From: Chrysophaeum taylorii | Lineage: Eukaryota; Sar; Pelagophyceae; Pelagomonadales; Pelagomonadaceae | Length of the DNA: 64,000 nucleotides | Direction: 5' to 3' | Assembly (NCBI GenBank): GCA_029834535.1 | Contig: JAQMWT010000242.1 | Coordinates: 26,390-90,389 of the forward strand | Shown here: one piece after another, positions 1,766 through 32,032 of the stretch | Numbering within the stretch: position 1 is the first letter of the stretch | Layout of the letters: each line of letters opens with the position of its first letter | The notes under the pieces: generated by a model | Seen by the model: only the letters and a program-made list of their open reading frames with translations | The model's database searches: none | What the model was told of the DNA's origin: nothing | Made by a program: the position numbers and the translations under genes

Positions 1766-1783
1766 CGCAAGGTTACAACACGT

Positions 1784-4700
1784 TTGCTCCATACAGTAAC
1801 TTCATCTACTAGCCCACGAATACCTACAGAAACTTTACTTTGCTCTGGGATGTCCACTCCTGCATTCTTGGCTTGCGCTTCTAATGACTTGCAAATCAAC
1901 ATCAACGTTAAAGTTCTTGTTGAGAGCGACGACAATATCACGCACATGCTACGAAGACGTTTTGGTAATTCCATCGAAGTTTTCCCATCCTTACCTAAGT
2001 TTTTGACATATCACCATCGAGCATCGGACGTTGAACGTGCACGATATTACACTGACATAGTGGAATTGACATCACCATGCACAAATCGCAACATAATCAA
2101 TGGGAGATCCGTTTCCACCTTCGAGCGCGATATGGATGATTCCTTGTTCCCAAGTGCTCTAAGTGTACTTGAGCTTTTAAAGCCGCTTGTTCTCTTCATG
2201 GAAATGACTCCACCACACTCTGCATCGTATGAAGATCATATACGAGTTGCTAATCTCATCTTCTCAACGATGCACTATACGGTGGACATATGTGACCGAT
2301 TTCCATGCTATTTATGTGGAGATTATCAAGCCAGAGAAAGATGGATCCTTGTCGCACGCAAATATAACACCGGCCCTCTTGATCTGCTTTCATGGCCTAA
2401 TAAACGAGTCACTTCCTTTCTGGACATTGCAGACCACACTAATTCCATCAGTCGCAAGTTAATAGTCGACGAACCTTGGACGCAGGTCTTTCCTGACATA
2501 CCATTTGTGTCCACACCTAAAACCTACAATATTTTCAGTCGTACAGGATCCGTGCGCTTAACTGTGACTGAGCTTGAAACCTTAACTATGCTGTTCCTTC
2601 GTCTGCACTCTAATAAAACAGTCGAACATCCCAGTCAAGATGAAATGGAGGGCATTTCTAACTTTCGCCTGGGATTCTTGACTAATTCAAGAAAACCACT
2701 TGCTTGCATGAGATCTCCTATTGAACTCAAAGCTTTTGTGCTCCTCTACAATATTATGGGACGATTATTCCCTAAATCCATCACACTACCTGTGTCCTTT
2801 CGTATTACAACTATCGAATCTAACCAACCGTCTCACAGGTTATTCTTAAATAAATCCTCTACTTCATCCATCATTTACATCACTGGCGGAAGACATACAG
2901 GTGGAGACATAACAGTTTCTAACTCTTCTTCTAAATACCAGGCACACATAAATGCTTTTGGCGAAACCTACGCCCTTTTAACACACGACGCCGGAACCGA
3001 TAAGACTGCTTTTCTCGAACCAGTTACCGGTTTTCTTTGGCTTTGCAAAGCGTACCATAATAATAATGAAAATCAAGACACGCGTCGTCTAGTACAAGCA
3101 CTGGTTTCCTATACCTCTCCTGTATTTCACGATTCTTTTGTCTTCTACCCTCAGGAAAATCGTCTTGAATTTATCGACAAAATATTTGCTTTAAGTGACA
3201 TGCATTTGTCCCAAAGCAGATATTTGGGCTTTATAACATCAAGCGATAGGAAGATGGGTGCCAAAGTTCACTCTATATACACTCCCACTCCTACCATTCG
3301 TGGATTTGCTAATATGCTGGTGTACGATCCACGACTCGATCGCATTCGACACTACTCAACTCGCGAATTGGCACGCGCCAATAACTTCACAGCGTACCAA
3401 ATCAATTTTCTTTTGTCTTTGTCCCCTGACCTATGCTGTGATATCATCGCAAATGCTATTCCAGCTGGAACATATCATGCAATTTATAAACATTTGTGTC
3501 AGCTTGTCTATGACTTGCGTATATTAACACTATCACCATCGTTTGACCCTGATCACGCTCCTCTAACCAAAAACTATAGGTCAACCTTCTTCACAAATAT
3601 ATTCCCAACAGATACATCCTTAACATTACACCAGAGTTCCATTACTATGTTCTACATCTCCAATAAAAAACTCTTATGTTGTGATACTATCACTTCTAAC
3701 CACGAACTTCCTTCTTTTCATATTGATTCAGTAGCTCATGCTTTCCTCTCTAACATCTCATCCGCAGATATATCATCTCCTACTAAAGAAAAACAAATAC
3801 CCCTTATAACGCCAAGACAGCTCCATGAGAAGCATGCGCCCTTCGATAAGAAAGTCCATGCCAGGGGCACCCTCGCATTTCGAGATGCGCAACAACGAGC
3901 TACCAATTTTCACAACATTCACCATTCCAGTGATTCTCAAGCCATAAAAGCTGTTCAGGTTATTGCCAGTCCTGGACACCACCCATCTGACGTACCCTAC
4001 CGTAAGTTCTGTGTGGATTGTACGATTCATAAAAAACGCTTTCCTCATCCACACCACCTTATCAAGCAACCATCATTCGAAAAAATTTTTCAACCTGGTG
4101 AAGCCTGGGCATGTGACGGTGGTTACGTATCTGTGCTCTCGGAATGGGGATCCTTTCGACATATCATTGTTTTCAAGTGTCTCATTTCTAAATTTCTGTT
4201 AGTGTACTTTTGTCGTAGCACTAACTCCAGCGAATTTTGTAACGCCCTTGAGTTTGTCCGCAATTTTTGCTCTACTTATGTTCATGTACAACTAAAACAA
4301 ATCTATTGTGATTCCTTTAAACCCTATTTATCTCAGCATGTTACAACCCCCTTCCGTGTGGAACATGGTATTAATATGTCCGCGTTCCCCCCTTACTTAC
4401 ATGTCTTTAATCATGAAGTCGAAGCCGCTGTTGGTCACATAGCCACTGCCGCGTCTACACGACTCAGGCATATGCTTAATGTATCCTATAAAGGTCACCC
4501 CCTAACAGATCCGGCACCACACTACCCGTGGGCTGTTATACATGCTATCCAATCATATAATCTCCTCCCTAACGTTTCCCTCGAACGTATTTACAATAAA
4601 GTCCTAAGCCCCCAACAAGTTTTGTTAGACCAATGTAATGTTCCCCAACAAGACCACCTCAAACCTTTTGGTTCTGTTTGTTATTTGCATTTGGAACCTA

Positions 4701-6968
4701 ACGAATTTCATAAATATGAACCCCGATGTCGTCCCTACATCTACTTATGCGGTGCTAACGTTATAAACCCTTTAATAACACCCCATGTTAATCATTTAGC
4801 CGATGTTGTCCCTAATCCTGAAAACGGCCAAGTCCGTGTTTCCTCTAAACTGACTTTTCCCATCTTATTTCTAAATCTCCTCCTGATTATGAACAGCATC
4901 CACCTCCCGCACCTTCACCCGACATTCCCTTCTCTGTTCACAGCACCCCCAATGATGCGGCGCAGAGGGGGAATGCTATGCCTACCGACACTGACCATGA
5001 GAGGGGGGCTCCTTCTTCTCATCTCCATGCTCCCTCTCCCGCTCCCGCATTTGCTCCAGCTGCTCCTGCACCCGCTACTTCCACCACCAAACCTACATCT
5101 GAAGTGTCTCCCGACACTCTGCCACTTTTACCATCTTATCGGTCTCTCTATTCCCAGGATGTCCTCCGTCTCACCCGTGGTCCTCATCACCCTCAGCCTC
5201 GTCGCAAAACCAATCTCAAGGATGTTCTTACTCGTATTGCTTCGCCCACTGTTGCCGCTTATAAACAAGCCGGTGGTACGCTTGCCGACTTCAAGTATGA
5301 CCTCTCCAAGCAGTACATAACGTTCTGCGACCCCACCCTCCACTCCCTTCATATCGCTCATGGCATTCACTGGACGGCTATACCTCCAGAGGGGGAATTT
5401 ACACCATCCCTTCATCACCATGTGCACCAAGCGATTTCACAGTCCTCTTCAGTTATGTGTCATAGGAGCCATAGCCACCCATCGCCTGATGCTCCCCATG
5501 TTCACCTCTGCGACTTCCCGTCTACCATGTCGACGTCCCTAGCGCCTTTGTTCAAGCTCCCATCGATTCTCATGTCTATGTCAAACTGCCACAAGGCATT
5601 TATCTTCTCGATCCCGAAGATACTAAATACCAAGGCCGTCGTCTCCCAAAGCTACTTAAATCTCTGTATGGATTGCGTCAGAGCCCTGCCCTTTGGAATC
5701 AAACCACAAACGGCTTCTTTGATTCATTAGGCTACACACGATTTCGAACAGACACATGCATTTAGGCTAAAGTCCAAGCTGACGCTACATTTCTAATTTG
5801 CACGCTCTCAGTAGACGACGTCGTCATTACTTGTACTTCGAAAACTCTACGTCGTGAGTTCCAGCAAGCCCTGAAAAAGGAATACTCAGTCGACACCTTC
5901 GAGGAAGTCCATACTCGCCTAGGCATGCGCATAACGCGCACAACTGATGGTTCTATATCACTGGACTGTCAGGCTAAACTTGACGCATTGTTCGAAGAGT
6001 ACCCCATTTTAATGCAGTTACGTCCCACTTCCACACCGATGTCACCATCAACCACGTATAAAACTGGAGAGCCATCTTCTGATATGGACAAGTTTATTCT
6101 TCATACCTTCTCCACCTTACTCGGCAAACTTACTTTTGTGATTTATCCCAAAGCCTTAGTCGTTGCTCTCGAGGAATGCATAATCCAGCATTTCTGCATG
6201 TTCAAGTACCAACAGGAACGCTCCGCTACTTGCGCAAGCCCGAAAATCGTAATCTTCGCCTCTGGTACTACTCTGGTTCTTCCGCTCTAATGGACCATCT
6301 TCGACTTCTTATCGGTAATCGTACTGACATGGCCACCATGTTGGACTACACTAAAGAACAAGTTAATTCAGGTAATTTTGATCCACTTGTCGCATTCGTT
6401 GATGCCGATAATGCACCCTCTTATGAACAAGACCGCAAATCTACAACCGGTTACGCTTTCTTTTTGTTTGGTTCTCTCATCACTTGGAAGTCCAAGCTGC
6501 AACCTATCACAGCTACTTCTACGCATGAGAGTGAACTTATCGCCCTTAATATGTGCGCCGATGATGTGGTCTGGTTACGCAAATTGCTAACGGAAATGAC
6601 ATTCGTTATAAATCCTCACTTCTATCTCCGCCAACCTTCAGGGAAAGGCCTGTTACTAGATTATGATGCACACGACAATCCCCTCCCATCGGACATGTCG
6701 TTCATACGTAACAGTCCTATACTTGGAGATTCGGCCTCTGCTATTCATCTATCAAATAACCCCCGACAGCGCGACTAAGGCTAAAGCTATCAGCACACGC
6801 TGGTTCCGTATACGCGACTACGTACAGTTAAAACGAATACGTCTACATCATGTTCCCGGTACCCATAATATCGCCGATGGATTTACCAAACCCTTTGGAG
6901 CTCCACTCTTCAGCAGATTTCGCACGTTACTCGGCTTACAACAACCCATAGCTCAACAAGATGGTTAA
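1784..6968 (+). pseudogene. Copia-type Pol remnant: integrase, reverse transcriptase, RNase H
   Basis: The first long frame (1,784-5,320) ends in an integrase: a CVDC pair near 4,010, then catalytic-type residues in WACDGG (about 4,115), YCDSF (about 4,308) and NHEVEAAVG (about 4,415). RT is recognised by SLYGLRQSPALWN (about 5,660-5,700) and SVDDVVI (about 5,810), the copia form of the YVDD box. RNase H has DRKSTTGY, WKSKLQP and STHESELIAL (about 6,430-6,540), then SASAIHLSNNP and, in another frame, HHVPGTHNIADGFTKP (about 6,850-6,895). That order (IN before RT) defines Ty1/copia. There is a TAG at 5,763 within RT and at least four frame changes, so it cannot give an active polyprotein. About 650 residues before the integrase are unrecognised. 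Confidence 0.85.
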
Positions 6969-26566: not shown

Positions 26567-29500
26567 TCACCCCGCATCGTCCTCTTCCGACGACGACGAC
26601 GATGACGACGCGGATGACGCCTTTTTCTTCTTCTTCCGAGAGGTTGAGGATGCCGACTGCTTTGCTTGGAACTTTACGAGGTATGCGGGGTAGGCCTGGA
26701 AATCGGAATAGGTGACGTAGATGGACGGCTTTTCCATGTTGTCGACGGTCGTGTCGAAGCGATGATGGGGCCTGTCGACGCGGAGCGGCGGTAGGGTCGT
26801 CTCCTGATTGCCGATGCAGTAGCACCCAACGAGGATACGCGACACGAGGACGTGCTGGATGCCCTCGTCGTCGGGCGGCGAGTACTTGGGAAAACAGGAA
26901 TACTCCGAGTTGGTGGCAAAGTAGACGCCGCGGCCGTGCTGGGCCGCCGTCGAGCAGAAGTCCCGGTTGAATCCTTGGGCGACGATGCGCGCGGAGCTCA
27001 CCTTGGTCGTCCCGTGGAAGACGGGCCAGCGCTCGACGCGGTCGAGGTCGCGCGTGCCTTCCTGCTCGAGCATCGTGAGGCGGTTGGCCGTAAACGCGCG
27101 CCAGAGCGAAAGATTTTGAACTCGGTCGACTGCGAGGACCTTGAAATAGCGGCGGTCGAAGAAGTCGGCGATCTGCCGGTGTTCCTTGTGGCCGTCGGCG
27201 AGAGGGACGAGGCCCTCGGCCTGGGTCCACGACTTGGGCGGCAGTAGGAATTTGAAGTCGGCGGGTTTGGCGGTGGGTAGCATGTCAAGCACGTCTTCGC
27301 ACTTACGCACGCTCGACAGCGGAAACCACCCGGCGTTATCGAGAACTTCGGCCACGTTGCCGCGCGAGAGCTCGCGCCCAAACGCCCACTCGCCGCTATC
27401 GTGCTCGACGACGATCGAGACAAGCATGCCGGGAACTAGCCGCATCGGGTTCCCCTGGATGTCGGTTGGCATGCCGCGAACCACCGGCACGCCGCGGACG
27501 ACGCGGGTCGGCTCGGCCTCGCTCGCGACTTCCTCGATCACGACGCACACGGGACGCTGGAATCCCGTGTCGACGCGGCGCTGCCACATCTTCTTGACGT
27601 CGACCTCGTACTTGGCGTCTGCGAGGCTCGACTCGGTGTCGTCCATGAGCTCGTTGAACTGGTCGAGCCATAGTCGCGGGCTGGCGTTCGAGTCGCTGCG
27701 AAACGCGTAGTACAGCTCGGAGAGCCGACGTTGCACCTCGGCCAACTCGTACTTGATCCAGAGAGATCCCTGACGCGTCATGTTCTGGCTCCACTTGCCC
27801 ATGTGCCGCTGGTGCTCGCGCCAGTACCACGTGAGGACGACAGCCCGCCCGCTGTCGACGCGCAGCACGCGCCGCGTGCTTTTGGTCTTTATGTTCCGCT
27901 GGATCATGATCGCGACGTCGATCTCGAGCTGCTTGTCTTTGCTCACGTGAATCTTGAGCTTGTGCAGCGAGGCCTTGGGCATCCCGCCCGCGACCGCGGC
28001 GTCGGCCGCTTGCAGCCGTAGTTTCTCCTTGGTTGCCGGAGGCAGCTGGAGATATTTATGCCAAAGTTCCGAGAGCTGGTCTTGGACGAGGCTGTCGTAT
28101 GGCGCCCATTTCGTGACCCCGTCCTTGTCGATCAGCACGCGATCCCTCTCCCCGCCGGCGTCGTTGGTGCACTCCCAGTACCAGAGGCTTTCGTAGTACA
28201 CGTCGCCGGGATCCTCCTCTTCTTTGAGCTCCTCCTTGATCTCGCCGTCCGAAGACGAACGACGGTGATTCTGCTGGAACGACGTACTCGTCGTGCCTAG
28301 CGGTGCCGTCTCGACGACGGCCTGATCACTACTGTTTTCGTCGTCGTCGTTCGACTGGAGTGCGTAGACAACCACGTTATTCTGCGAGCCCTGACTAAAG
28401 AGGTCGCCGGCACCGCGCTTTTCGATCACGCTGCTGATCGTGCGGCGCGTCTCGTGCGCCGTCGGATCAAACGCCTCGACGACCTCGTAGGCGTTGAGCG
28501 AGGCCACCAAAGCGCGGCGGTGGCGTTTCGTTTGGCGGCTAAACGCTCTGCACATGCAGCAGCACATGATGAGAACGAGCGTGCTGAACCCAACGCCAAA
28601 CGAGACGAAAATGCGCATATTTCGGCGGTCGTAGCGACGGGCGGAAGTGCCGTCCTCGCTCGCGTCCGCAATAGCCGGCGGCTCGTCGTCAGGCGGCTGC
28701 GTCAATTCTCCCGGCCAGATTATTTGGTTTTCCCAGACGACGAGCTGATGTGTTGAAGCGGGATACTCTCCCGCGACGACGAACTCCGCGAAAGAAAAGA
28801 ACAGCGGTAAGGACAAAAGCATTCGCTTGCCGTCGCCGTTGACGAGCTGAAGGTTGACCAACTCCAAAGTGCCGAGGCGATCGCCGTCGGGCGCCAGCGT
28901 CACGTTGCCAGAGGCGCCCTCGAAGCGCGGCAGCTCGAGGATCGCGTCGAACGCGCTCGCCGTGCTGTCGCCCGCGGCATCGACGCCTTTGGCATACGCG
29001 AGAACCGCGTCGCTCCAAAATAGAGAGACGCGCGTCGACGTGAGAGGGTCGCCGTCGACGTCGCAGTAGTGGTAGTTGTCACTACTCGTGGCGATTTCGG
29101 CCTCGATGTCGTCGTCGTGGACCTCCTCCATCGGGCGGATGCTGTACCCCGTTTGCTGGAGCGCATCTTCGTCGTCCTCGTTCTTGACGAAGTCGTAGCT
29201 TATGCCCGGAGCGTACGACCGGTCGACGCACGATTCTGCCGTCGGACCGTGCGCCGCCCAGGCGTCCACGTAGGTGGTGGTCGCCGCGCCGCCGCTCTCG
29301 TAATCGGGATAGTGATCCAAAAAACCAAGGCTGCCGCGCTGGCCATAAAATGCGTCGTAGTCGACGGCTTCGCCCTCTGACGAAGACGAGATCAGTGCAT
29401 CTTGCGAGGGGAGATGGTTGAGCCACGCGTAGCCGGCGCCGTTCAGCACGCCCGTGCGGTACGACGCCGCGAACAGAGAGCGCTGGACGCGGGGCTGCGC

Positions 29501-32032
29501 GACGAGCAGCACAATCCTGGCACCAGTCGCATCGACCACGTCGAGAACATCTTCGGCGCTCACGTCTTGCCTGTCGAAATCTTGGAGGGAGATAGCAACG
29601 CCGCCCGCGTCGATCTCGCGCCGGCACGCGTCCCCGACGCACGCGCCCCCGCCGAGGACGTCGTACGCGTAGACGTCGGCGAAGGCGGCGGCCGCCGACG
29701 CTGCCCATTGCGAGTCGTCGTGGACGATCGCGACGTGTTGCCAGCCGTAGTAAGCCACGAGATCTCCGAGCGCATGCGCGATCTCGTTTTCGGGCGTCGC
29801 CAAGCGTACGAGAAACGGATACGTCGCGTCGTCTTCGAGAATACTCGCCGTCGTGCTCGTCGCGATGACGACGTACGCCTGGGTCTGACCTGTCGCTTCT
29901 GAAAATCTCGCTCGAATCGCCTCGTCGGCAAGCTCCGCGGCATCGTCCGAACAGCCCGTGATGACGGCGTCGACGCGAATTTCGAGCTCTCGCGCGATCT
30001 CGACGAGGGCTTCGTACGCGAGCGCGCGCGCGCATCCGACCGAGAGGTCGTATCCGATGAATTGAATTGACGGAGCGAGATCGTCGTAGTAGCCGTCGTC
30101 GCGGTCGTTCAGCATGTCCACCGTGAACAACGCGTGGTCGCACTGCTCGCGTGCCGACTCCGAGTCGGCATCGCACAGCACGACGATGTTTGCCAACGCG
30201 ACGTCGGCCGTTTGCGAGATTCGCGTCTCGAGAGGGTACTCGACGTCCGGACGCAACGGGGCGTCGGGGTCACTATAGAATTCAGAGAGGTAGGCCGACA
30301 CCGCCCGGAACGCCGTGACACCCGAATAATACACGTTGGTGGCGTCGTCGACGTCGATGATGTCGGCGAACGCAAAGTCGTCGCCGAGGAAACGCGACGA
30401 CACGGCGAGCGAGTACTTCGCGGCCTCGGCGTCGTCGCTCAGCAGCTCGCCGTCGAAATAAATTCGTTCGCCGACGGTTGGCGTCTCCCCCAAGTAATAC
30501 CAGGTCACTTGGAGCCGCGACGAGATCTGGAGAAAGAAGCGGTCGCCGTAGAACTCGGAGGAAGACGAATCGTCCGCTTGGAGCGAGTGCGACTCGATGA
30601 CGAGGCGCTCGAACGAATGCTGGAGCAGGACGCGCAGGGCCGGTCCGGTGATGCCGTCAAGGCGCACGATTTCGTCGCCGATGTCGGGCAACATCTCGAG
30701 AAGATGCGAGTCGAGGACATCGAACTTGAACAACGAGGCCTGGATGGCGCCGCACGGCACGAAGCCGACGTCGGCGGCGACGTACCACGCGAGGGCGTCG
30801 GCGACGAGGTCACCTGCGGGGCACTCGGCTACAGCGCAGCCGCACATCGAAACGCCTTCGACAGCGAGACTCGTACACATCTGCCCGGGAATGAGGTGGG
30901 AGCCATCGACGGTGTCCCAAACGTAACCGGCGAGGCCGAGGTCCCAGTCGCCGAGTTTGTTGTCGATCTCCTGCTTGTACGCGTCAATCACCTCTCGCGT
31001 CACCGCGTCCTCGTCGGCGTAACAGTCCAGGTCGGTGCGGTTGATTTTTGACAGCCCAGGTTGAAGGAACGGTAGCTCCTCTTTGACGCCGATCGTCACG
31101 TTCGTGAGCGCTGTTCCGTGCTGCGAGTCGTCGATCGACGCGATCGCCACCGTTTCGTCAGCCCAGTTTGGGAGCTCGTGAACGACCGACCTCTCGCCGA
31201 CCAGCGCGCCGTCTACAATCACGGCAGTCGTGGAGGGATATTGGTACACGAACTGAAGACCGGGTGCGCCGAGCAAGTCTTCCTCTTGGTCGCCAGACAT
31301 AGTGACGACGATGATTTGCGGCGGGTACGACCATCGACTCATCTCGCGAAATGCGCGAACCATGGCCTGCTCGGGGGAAATGAGGCGGTCCGCGTAATAG
31401 GGCGAAACCGTGCGGAGCTCCATTTCGTCAATCATCGTCAAAATGGCCGCTATCGGGGCTTGATAAACGTCGGGATAGCCCGAGTCATCGCCTCGATCAA
31501 ACAGCGTGATGTTGGCAATCTGCGCGACCGTGTCGTTCAAGTACGGCTCGTTCGAGAGGTCGAGGTTGGTCGCAATCGCGGGGGGCCCGCCGCGCCTCAA
31601 GTACTCGCCCAACAGGACACCCCCCGTGGGATCGTCATCGTTGACGCCCGCGGCGAAATCCCTCGGCGAGAGTGCGCGGACATCATAGCCCGACGACTCG
31701 AACAGCTCGGCCGCGACCTCCCCTTCGAAGGCTGGGAAGAACAAACCCGACCCGGAGAAGAAGCCGCCGAGGTCCAAGGCGATGATTGCCGACTTGCCCT
31801 CCGCGATGGCCTGAGTCTTCCGGGCTTTGATGGCCTCGACTCGTCGCGCTGCTCCGCCATCGCACTCGCACGGCTGGGAAGCGTACTTGTCGAGCGAACA
31901 TTCGCCCAACCCCGCCACGTCGACGGGATACTGGGCGCCCAGCACGTCATTTGTGACCACAAACTCCACCTCGTACGCGACTGCCACCGTCCAGAAGATG
32001 TGAGCAATGACCCTCCAGCCATTTCCTTTCAT
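26567..32032 (-). CDS. Receptor-like transmembrane PARP: 5'-nucleotidase-like + ANF receptor + TM + WWE x2 + SH3-like + PARP (1,821 aa)
   Basis: Intronless. The first ATG is at 32,032 (MKGNGWRVIAHIFWTVAVAY, a signal peptide); the upstream 19 codons lack an ATG. Domains (residues from that Met): metallophosphoesterase-like half of a 5'-nucleotidase, about 22-340; its C-terminal half, about 365-565 (GDLVADALAWYV; SRFLGDDFAF); periplasmic-binding/ANF ligand-binding domain, about 606-1070 (YYGWQHVAIVHDDSQW); membrane helix, 1139-1160; WWE domains at about 1283-1394 and 1399-1498 (WYW openings, IMIQRNIKT and VDVKKMWQRR endings); SH3-like, about 1531-1577 (NAGWFPLSSV); PARP catalytic domain, about 1598-1789 with FHGTT, GRGVYFATNSEYS and SDFQAYPAYL; Lys/Ser-rich tail. 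Triad His1673, Tyr1704, Ile1771 (H-Y-I) fits a mono-ADP-ribosyltransferase like PARP10-12/14. Nucleotidase metal ligands are missing (see findings). Predicted type I membrane protein: extracellular sensing, cytosolic NAD-dependent ADP-ribosylation. The domain calls are firm for WWE/PARP and the membrane helix, good for ANF and nucleotidase, moderate for SH3. Confidence 0.88.
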   Translation of the reverse strand: MKGNGWRVIAHIFWTVAVAYEVEFVVTNDVLGAQYPVDVAGLGECSLDKYASQPCECDGGAARRVEAIKARKTQAIAEGKSAIIALDLGGFFSGSGLFFPAFEGEVAAELFESSGYDVRALSPRDFAAGVNDDDPTGGVLLGEYLRRGGPPAIATNLDLSNEPYLNDTVAQIANITLFDRGDDSGYPDVYQAPIAAILTMIDEMELRTVSPYYADRLISPEQAMVRAFREMSRWSYPPQIIVVTMSGDQEEDLLGAPGLQFVYQYPSTTAVIVDGALVGERSVVHELPNWADETVAIASIDDSQHGTALTNVTIGVKEELPFLQPGLSKINRTDLDCYADEDAVTREVIDAYKQEIDNKLGDWDLGLAGYVWDTVDGSHLIPGQMCTSLAVEGVSMCGCAVAECPAGDLVADALAWYVAADVGFVPCGAIQASLFKFDVLDSHLLEMLPDIGDEIVRLDGITGPALRVLLQHSFERLVIESHSLQADDSSSSEFYGDRFFLQISSRLQVTWYYLGETPTVGERIYFDGELLSDDAEAAKYSLAVSSRFLGDDFAFADIIDVDDATNVYYSGVTAFRAVSAYLSEFYSDPDAPLRPDVEYPLETRISQTADVALANIVVLCDADSESAREQCDHALFTVDMLNDRDDGYYDDLAPSIQFIGYDLSVGCARALAYEALVEIARELEIRVDAVITGCSDDAAELADEAIRARFSEATGQTQAYVVIATSTTASILEDDATYPFLVRLATPENEIAHALGDLVAYYGWQHVAIVHDDSQWAASAAAAFADVYAYDVLGGGACVGDACRREIDAGGVAISLQDFDRQDVSAEDVLDVVDATGARIVLLVAQPRVQRSLFAASYRTGVLNGAGYAWLNHLPSQDALISSSSEGEAVDYDAFYGQRGSLGFLDHYPDYESGGAATTTYVDAWAAHGPTAESCVDRSYAPGISYDFVKNEDDEDALQQTGYSIRPMEEVHDDDIEAEIATSSDNYHYCDVDGDPLTSTRVSLFWSDAVLAYAKGVDAAGDSTASAFDAILELPRFEGASGNVTLAPDGDRLGTLELVNLQLVNGDGKRMLLSLPLFFSFAEFVVAGEYPASTHQLVVWENQIIWPGELTQPPDDEPPAIADASEDGTSARRYDRRNMRIFVSFGVGFSTLVLIMCCCMCRAFSRQTKRHRRALVASLNAYEVVEAFDPTAHETRRTISSVIEKRGAGDLFSQGSQNNVVVYALQSNDDDENSSDQAVVETAPLGTTSTSFQQNHRRSSSDGEIKEELKEEEDPGDVYYESLWYWECTNDAGGERDRVLIDKDGVTKWAPYDSLVQDQLSELWHKYLQLPPATKEKLRLQAADAAVAGGMPKASLHKLKIHVSKDKQLEIDVAIMIQRNIKTKSTRRVLRVDSGRAVVLTWYWREHQRHMGKWSQNMTRQGSLWIKYELAEVQRRLSELYYAFRSDSNASPRLWLDQFNELMDDTESSLADAKYEVDVKKMWQRRVDTGFQRPVCVVIEEVASEAEPTRVVRGVPVVRGMPTDIQGNPMRLVPGMLVSIVVEHDSGEWAFGRELSRGNVAEVLDNAGWFPLSSVRKCEDVLDMLPTAKPADFKFLLPPKSWTQAEGLVPLADGHKEHRQIADFFDRRYFKVLAVDRVQNLSLWRAFTANRLTMLEQEGTRDLDRVERWPVFHGTTKVSSARIVAQGFNRDFCSTAAQHGRGVYFATNSEYSCFPKYSPPDDEGIQHVLVSRILVGCYCIGNQETTLPPLRVDRPHHRFDTTVDNMEKPSIYVTYSDFQAYPAYLVKFQAKQSASSTSRKKKKKASSASSSSSSSEEDDAG

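Follow-up and report, generated by a model that had tools for sequence, protein, structure and literature searches.

A predicted single-pass receptor with a cytosolic mono-ADP-ribosyltransferase in the pelagophyte Chrysophaeum taylorii

A gene of the pelagophyte Chrysophaeum taylorii probably encodes a type I single-pass receptor mono-ADP-ribosyltransferase, in which a ligand bound outside the membrane would control a PARP enzyme inside it. The gene lies in a stretch of 64,000 nucleotides of contig JAQMWT010000242.1 (positions 26,390 to 90,389 of the forward strand), here called the window; positions in the window are counted from its first letter. Comparisons with related sequences support the assignment of this gene to a family of receptor mono-ADP-ribosyltransferases with shuffled ectodomains, rather than its being an isolated fusion.

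Reading frame, domain order and paralogues

The frame runs without interruption on the minus strand from an ATG to a stop (Table 1), as claimed in a preliminary description of this DNA. At 62.3% GC the chance of a random open run of that length is about 8e-24, and third-position GC is high along the whole frame, at 0.72-0.88 per 130-codon bin. Pfam finds 5_nucleotid_C, ANF_receptor, WWE (in two stretches) and PARP in the 1821-aa protein, each above its curated cut-off, so that the ANF and PARP domains named in the preliminary description were recovered by domain search. The public protein P0001 (CTAYLR_008929; 1775 aa) is 100% identical over 97% of the query, and this gene model covers both the ectodomain and the inner half. 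Towards the 3′ end this model no longer follows the open frame; the models of two paralogues, P0002 and P0003, retain that end. Because P0001 leaves the frame there, it lacks the third residue of the PARP triad and the end of the PARP fold.

A search of the C. taylorii genome gave 53 matches, among them seven further single-frame relatives with the same domain order (L009, L010, L011, L012, L014, L015 and L016). Pfam scans of five of these, leaving out L014 and L015, returned the same four families, although two of the matches, WWE in L012 and 5_nucleotid_C in L016, fell short of the cut-off; the L012 frame, cut at its first methionine, is without the first ~85 aligned residues. Pairwise dN/dS ratios (Nei-Gojobori) for L009/L010 and for the three pairs of L014-L016 are 0.28, 0.29, 0.32 and 0.36, and these five paralogues are under purifying selection. 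The layout proposed in the preliminary description thus recurs within the genome, as it does in other organisms (see below).

The long frame might instead be an artefact, joining two genes or the two sides of an assembly error, or a pseudogene. This is what the deviating 3′ end of P0001 would suggest, together with several genome copies (L013, L017 and the C439 cluster, L018-L020) that are split or broken as read, and in which introns are possible. Codon use is uniform, the same order is found in paralogues and in other organisms, the paralogues are under purifying selection, and two transcript-derived relatives (MMETSP P0075 and P0097) have all the parts, ectodomain, helix, WWE and PARP, within a single frame, all of which argues against an artefact. 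On codon use, recurrence and dN/dS this explanation was rejected, and we consider it highly improbable.

Neither Rfam (gathering threshold) nor a tRNA scan gave a match in the window. A 1184-aa frame on the plus strand of the window (1766-5320), within the lower-GC first 10 kb, has a sub-cut-off retroviral-polymerase SH3-like match and is probably a retroelement. Elsewhere in the genome, a small fragment (G000:C526:348925-349131) with 96% identity to residues 490-558 of the window protein is a partial duplicate.

Table 1. Features of the receptor gene, in positions of the window
Feature	Residues	Position	Strand	Basis
Whole frame, receptor with cytosolic PARP	1821 aa + stop	26567..32032	minus	open reading frame, ATG at 32032, stop at 26567
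Signal-peptide-like N-terminus (ends ...VAVA|Y)	1-19	31976..32032	minus	by eye on sequence
5′-Nucleotidase-like region, degenerate catalytic motifs	~21-600	30233..31972	minus	profile matches 2z1a, 3ivd, CD73; Pfam 5_nucleotid_C 393-533
Venus-flytrap ligand-binding domain (ANF_receptor)	~609-1119	28676..30208	minus	Pfam, profile, predicted fold
Single membrane helix	1141-1159	28556..28612	minus	hydropathy 2.31; model helix from residue ~1149
Juxtamembrane helix, then linker	1160-1275	28208..28555	minus	model: helix runs on to ~1179
First WWE domain	~1276-1400	27833..28207	minus	WYWE and QRNIKT..TRRVLR motifs; Pfam WWE
Second WWE domain	~1396-1503	27524..27847	minus	Pfam WWE, best stretch 1463-1496; motifs
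SH3-like region (contains GWFPLSSV)	~1525-1580	27293..27460	minus	GW[FLY] tripeptide in relatives
PARP catalytic domain	~1597-1790	26663..27244	minus	Pfam, sequence and fold matches
PARP triad	H1673, Y1704, I1771	27014-27016, 26921-26923, 26720-26722	minus	alignment
Low-complexity C-terminal tail, K/S/E/D-rich	1791-1821	26570..26662	minus	sequence

Ectodomain, membrane helix and enzyme

The signal peptide of the window protein is weakly hydrophobic, and the paralogue P0002 has a clearer one. The 5′-nucleotidase-like ectodomain that had been claimed was found with Pfam 5_nucleotid_C and with a 12-sequence profile, which matches the 5′-nucleotidase 2z1a over both its parts (2.6e-39), and it is catalytically degenerate. 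The metallophosphatase motifs are absent at the aligned places, GD being replaced by GG and GNHE by SPRD. The GGIR-type motif, which has a role in substrate binding, has glutamine in place of its arginine. An active ecto-nucleotidase was rejected for the window protein on this loss of motifs; the same loss, with that of the GGIR-type arginine, disfavours the sensing of extracellular nucleotides suggested in the preliminary description. Some relatives, such as P0010, retain GG.R- and GGDGY-like stretches in the second nucleotidase part and may bind nucleotides.

The ectodomain matches mGluR7 by sequence alone (4.4e-4), and the 12-sequence profile matches GABA-B receptor 1 (9.9e-18). A two-lobe flytrap fold is present in the predicted structure, which is GABA-B/mGluR-like by fold search, and these matches, with that of Pfam, confirm the ANF ligand domain. 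Its ligand would be a small solute, amino-acid-like by fold relationship.

The window protein has one hydrophobic segment at or above 1.8, in agreement with the single pass first proposed for it, and 7tm_3, the seven-helix domain of class C GPCRs, was not matched by Pfam at E up to 1. In 96 of 97 relatives classed by ectodomain, the best hydrophobic window ahead of PARP reaches 1.6 or more. The mean number of lysines and arginines per 15-residue flank of the helix in these receptors is 5.6 inside and 1.4 outside, with an excess on the C-terminal side in 87, on the outer side in 4 and ties in 6; this positive-inside pattern supports the proposed orientation. In the window protein basic residues flank the helix on both sides. 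N-glycosylation sequons are not enriched in the ectodomains (295 observed, 347 expected) and exceed expectation in the inner halves (365 observed, 229 expected), where the conserved PARP stretch often contains NRS and NAT; low outside and high inside, these counts therefore give no support to the topology. Just inside the membrane a hydrophobic period of 3.5 residues is the strongest of seven tried across the 97 relatives (z 10.6, inflated by relatedness), and a period of 2.5 is likewise elevated (z 5.4). The linker of the window protein has pLDDT values below 50 at ~1196-1274 and so is mostly modelled with low confidence.

The same protein could reside in the ER, the vacuole or another internal membrane and sense luminal solutes with its flytrap in the lumen, which differs from the receptor reading in place alone. 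PARP16 is an ER-anchored transferase. A C-terminal membrane region is described for the human protein in the portion of a PARP survey drawn on here (PMC4245714). Against this location, the ectodomains of the family are for the most part of kinds known from receptors for nutrients and transmitters, and a paper on diatom class C GPCRs depicts these with comparable domains, namely PBP1, 5-nucleotide-C and Cache (PMC3727952). We regard the endomembrane location as unlikely.

The PARP catalytic domain of the preliminary description was confirmed by Pfam, by the match of this part to human PARP14 on sequence alone (1.3e-31), and by its predicted fold, which matches PARP15, 14, 10 and 12. PARP10, PARP14 and PARP15 are mono-transferases, as their deposited names also state. 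Of 139 proteins, all except L027, which has no PARP domain, were aligned over the catalytic triad; the resulting 138 include the window protein, and three genes are counted twice, P0001 being the public model of the window gene, P0002 that of L010 and P0003 that of L009. The triad reads H-Y-I in 106, H-Y-L in 13, H-Y-V in 5 and H-Y-M in 4 (128 of 138 in all). Four of the other ten are gapped at the third place, and the remainder are one each of H-Y-T, H-Y-R, H-Y-S, gap-Y-I, E-Y-L and R-R-V, the H-Y-T belonging to the public model of the window gene. Glutamate was found at the third position in none of the 138 aligned proteins. PARPs with a hydrophobic third residue carry out mono-ADP-ribosylation, and because this residue is isoleucine in the window protein, the transfer of single ADP-ribose units, and not of chains, is predicted for it.

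The triad is degenerate at two loci of the C. taylorii genome. L024 shares the domain layout and reads E-Y-L, and L021 (L021:3621-5720) consists of a helix, a pair of WWE domains, an SH3-like region and a PARP-like end with R-R-V, with no ectodomain in frame; judged from its sequence, it is possibly an inactive partner of the receptors. Probably inactive versions therefore exist in this genome, and they lend some weight to a receptor whose PARP fold binds partners or ADP-ribose and performs no transfer. PARP13 has a PARP fold without transfer. RCD1 is described likewise in the portions used here of two PARP surveys (PMC2964712, PMC4245714). Against such a pseudo-enzyme, the window protein retains H-Y-I, nearly all of the aligned proteins retain H-Y with a hydrophobic third residue, and the closest folds are those of the mono-transferases PARP15, 14 and 10. 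We find a pseudo-enzyme quite unlikely and prefer an active mono-transferase.

Pfam WWE scores 29.2 bits against a cut-off of 21.1 in the window protein, in two stretches that, together with the motifs, bear out the two WWE domains proposed earlier. Counted without a control, 93 of the 97 relatives match a lax pattern for WWE, Q.[NKR]..[TSK]...R, in their inner halves. WWE domains can read ADP-ribose, and the presence of the pattern would suit such reading. A lax tripeptide pattern for the SH3-like region, GW[FLY], is found in the inner half of 94 of the 97; Pfam lists no SH3 for the window protein, and the SH3_2 match of the paralogue L010 is below cut-off (6e-4, 19.8 bits against 21.8), which leaves the SH3 assignment marginal. 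WWE and SH3 structures are missing from the fold-search rows because PARP filled the list. Three macro-domain loci were found in the genome search, and could remove or read an ADP-ribose mark.

In receptor guanylyl cyclases and class C receptors, closure of the flytrap moves the dimer, which activates an intracellular enzyme or helix bundle. In the window protein a small solute would close the flytrap and shift a receptor dimer, and the membrane helix and juxtamembrane linker would relay the signal inward. The cytosolic PARP would then transfer single ADP-ribose units from NAD+ to itself or to nearby proteins, with the WWE and SH3-like domains recruiting partners or reading ADP-ribose. Swaps of ectodomain near the helix would retune the ligand and leave the output unchanged.

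Relatives and exchange of ectodomains

The first homologue search found four proteins, including the window's own; it scored 8000 candidates, a limit that probably kept other relatives out, and the two later searches reached further. P0004 is 38% identical over 98% of the query and has precomputed Pfam matches to 5_nucleotid_C, ANF and PARP, with WWE not listed. L023 as query gave 13 proteins, including ANF-PARP proteins from Seminavis robusta and Cylindrotheca fusiformis, some of which have WWE listed. A query with the P0009 inner half gave 392 proteins at E up to 1e-10; the organisms among the matches listed (120 of 392) include Aureococcus anophagefferens, Cylindrotheca closterium, Nitzschia inconspicua and S. 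robusta. P0119 comes from an MMETSP set under an organism name beginning Tiarin. The relatives bear database names such as TCDD-inducible poly [ADP-ribose] polymerase, receptor family ligand binding protein and platelet-activating factor acetyltransferase, which do not treat them as one class.

The inner half was found under at least seven kinds of ectodomain. Classes were assigned, mostly from precomputed Pfam lists, to 86 of 122 matches listed (P0005-P0126): ANF or Peripla_BP_6 in 45 (three rows, P0019, P0020 and P0043, with Peripla_BP_6 and no listed ANF), NMT1-like and/or CUB in 18 (CUB alone for some rows, and P0108 on a sub-cut-off NMT1 match), 5′-nucleotidase with ANF in 8, Cache in 8, PBP_like_2 in 3, Bmp in 2 and LRR in 2. 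All members of the Bmp, Cache and LRR classes, and those of PBP_like_2 outside Chrysophaeum, are records without an organism name or P0119. The 36 left unclassed, and out of the helix, pair and tree comparisons, are P0084 (multi-pass), P0018 (EGF-like only) and 34 without an ectodomain in the precomputed list. Within C. taylorii, L022 and L023 carry a PBP_like_2 (phosphate-binding-type) ectodomain on helix-WWE-PARP, and L027 (L027:852-5003) carries one on a class C seven-helix domain; one kind of ectodomain thus serves two outputs in one genome.

The LRR, CUB or EGF-like ectodomains of some relatives would fit a membrane-bound mono-transferase that is constitutively active, its ectodomain serving adhesion or self-recognition and its enzyme free of control by a small ligand. 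Most of the 97 classed ectodomains are nevertheless solute-binding folds (ANF/Peripla_BP_6, PBP_like_2, Bmp, Cache and part of NMT1/CUB), so we give a constitutive enzyme little credence and favour a ligand-controlled receptor.

P0084 (1722 aa, metagenome) has the WWE-SH3-PARP half on a multi-pass body with six hydrophobic peaks, a 5′-nucleotidase and ephrin-receptor-like repeats; an ephrin-like/TRP-like body also occurs with ANF in L028 and L030. A viral origin was rejected, as 56 pattern matches in viral contigs contained no relative by tblastn. A scan for a prokaryotic origin gave 34 pattern matches in genome contigs and one confirmed relative, L031 (33% identity), in a metagenome-assembled genome labelled Opitutaceae (PAUB01000026.1), which could be contamination or transfer.

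Exchange of ectodomains was examined in pairs of the 97 classed receptors whose inner halves share 40% identity or more across 350 or more residues, with ectodomain similarity defined by BLASTP at 1e-3. Ectodomain similarity was lacking in 384 of 389 pairs of different class; it was found in 266 of 305 pairs of the same class and lacking in 39. In the 384 pairs the alignment has its median starting point 26 residues past the first residue of the helix (quartiles 19 and 91). In one of the five exceptions, the pair P0106 and P0101, identity is 77% from a point ~70-80 residues outside the helix through to the end, and the preceding parts are dissimilar.

The best tree of 90 inner halves requires 20 changes of ectodomain label, compared to 41.7 with shuffled labels, and 15 when ANF and 5′-nucleotidase with ANF are merged; counting no more than the well-supported branches, the merged ANF-type label must change 9 times. 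An earlier tree of 96 rows, from which P0114, P0124, Ct_L011, Ct_L012, Ct_L014 and Ct_L016 were later dropped, gave 22. Some label changes may reflect truncated contigs; P0025, for example, can be aligned to P0010 along its full length.

A switch near the helix can be located in a tandem array of L014, L015 and L016 on C. taylorii contig C323 (G000:C323:1-31000). The middle copy, L015, is L016-like up to base 5088 and L014-like from 5106, and its helix begins near 5191, placing the switch ~85-100 bases outside the helix. By sequence, L015 is a recombinant that joins the ectodomain of one type to the inner half of another.

Taken further, it seems rather more probable than otherwise that ochrophytes possess a receptor class with ADP-ribosylation as the first output, in which a helix-WWE-SH3-PARP cassette is combined with many solute-binding ectodomains, similar in kind to those of their class C GPCRs, and retuned by recombination near the helix between tandem copies. 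It would form an expanded chemoreceptor-like repertoire, with PARPs in the place that kinases hold in plant and animal receptors.

Relation to known receptors and PARPs

The portions of two PARP surveys consulted report no PARPs in the diatoms searched (PMC2964712) and later finds in T. oceanica and E. siliculosus, Thalassiosira oceanica being the sole diatom named (PMC4245714). Since these surveys reported no or one diatom with PARPs, the receptor-PARP class has probably been overlooked. The genes of C. taylorii were annotated from RNA-seq and homology evidence, and the terms parp, adp-ribos and receptor are absent from the main text of the genome paper (PMC10366177). No description of a receptor PARP was found among the papers listed, for some searches their best-ranked part, from the open-licence PMC literature, and the preliminary description, which knew of no such receptor, stands within that scope.

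If true, the receptor reading adds a new kind of transmembrane output, in which NAD+ is consumed to ADP-ribosylate proteins. It would operate in marine primary producers, the diatoms and the pelagophytes including the brown-tide alga Aureococcus, and it makes directly testable what algae sense with receptor PARPs and what ADP-ribose marks inside their cells.

The window protein resembles PARP10/12/14/15 (clade 3) in catalytic sequence and fold, in its H-Y-I/L-type triad and in WWE, which several of them have. To our knowledge none of these has a ligand-binding ectodomain and none is a single-pass receptor. In the part of the survey available to us, membrane helices are reported in PARP16, in clade 3 proteins of a sponge (N-terminal) and of Rhizaria (membrane or H-lectin domains), and in one rice protein, none of them as a receptor (PMC4245714). 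Both parts of ecto-5′-nucleotidase (CD73, UshA family) align by profile, but in the window protein GD and GNHE have become GG and SPRD, and the region is fused to a receptor. Compared to class C GPCRs (those of diatoms, and animal GABA-B and mGluR), it has one helix and not seven, an enzyme replacing 7tm_3. No kinase or cyclase domain is among its Pfam matches at E up to 1. The enzyme-linked receptors known to us use kinases, phosphatases, cyclases or proteases. Natriuretic-peptide receptor guanylyl cyclases are type I single-pass proteins with ANF outside and cyclase inside, and the window protein, likewise type I and likewise pairing an external ANF flytrap with an internal enzyme, would work like one, with the difference that its output is a PARP and not a cyclase. 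A PARP as the enzyme of such a receptor is new as far as we have searched.
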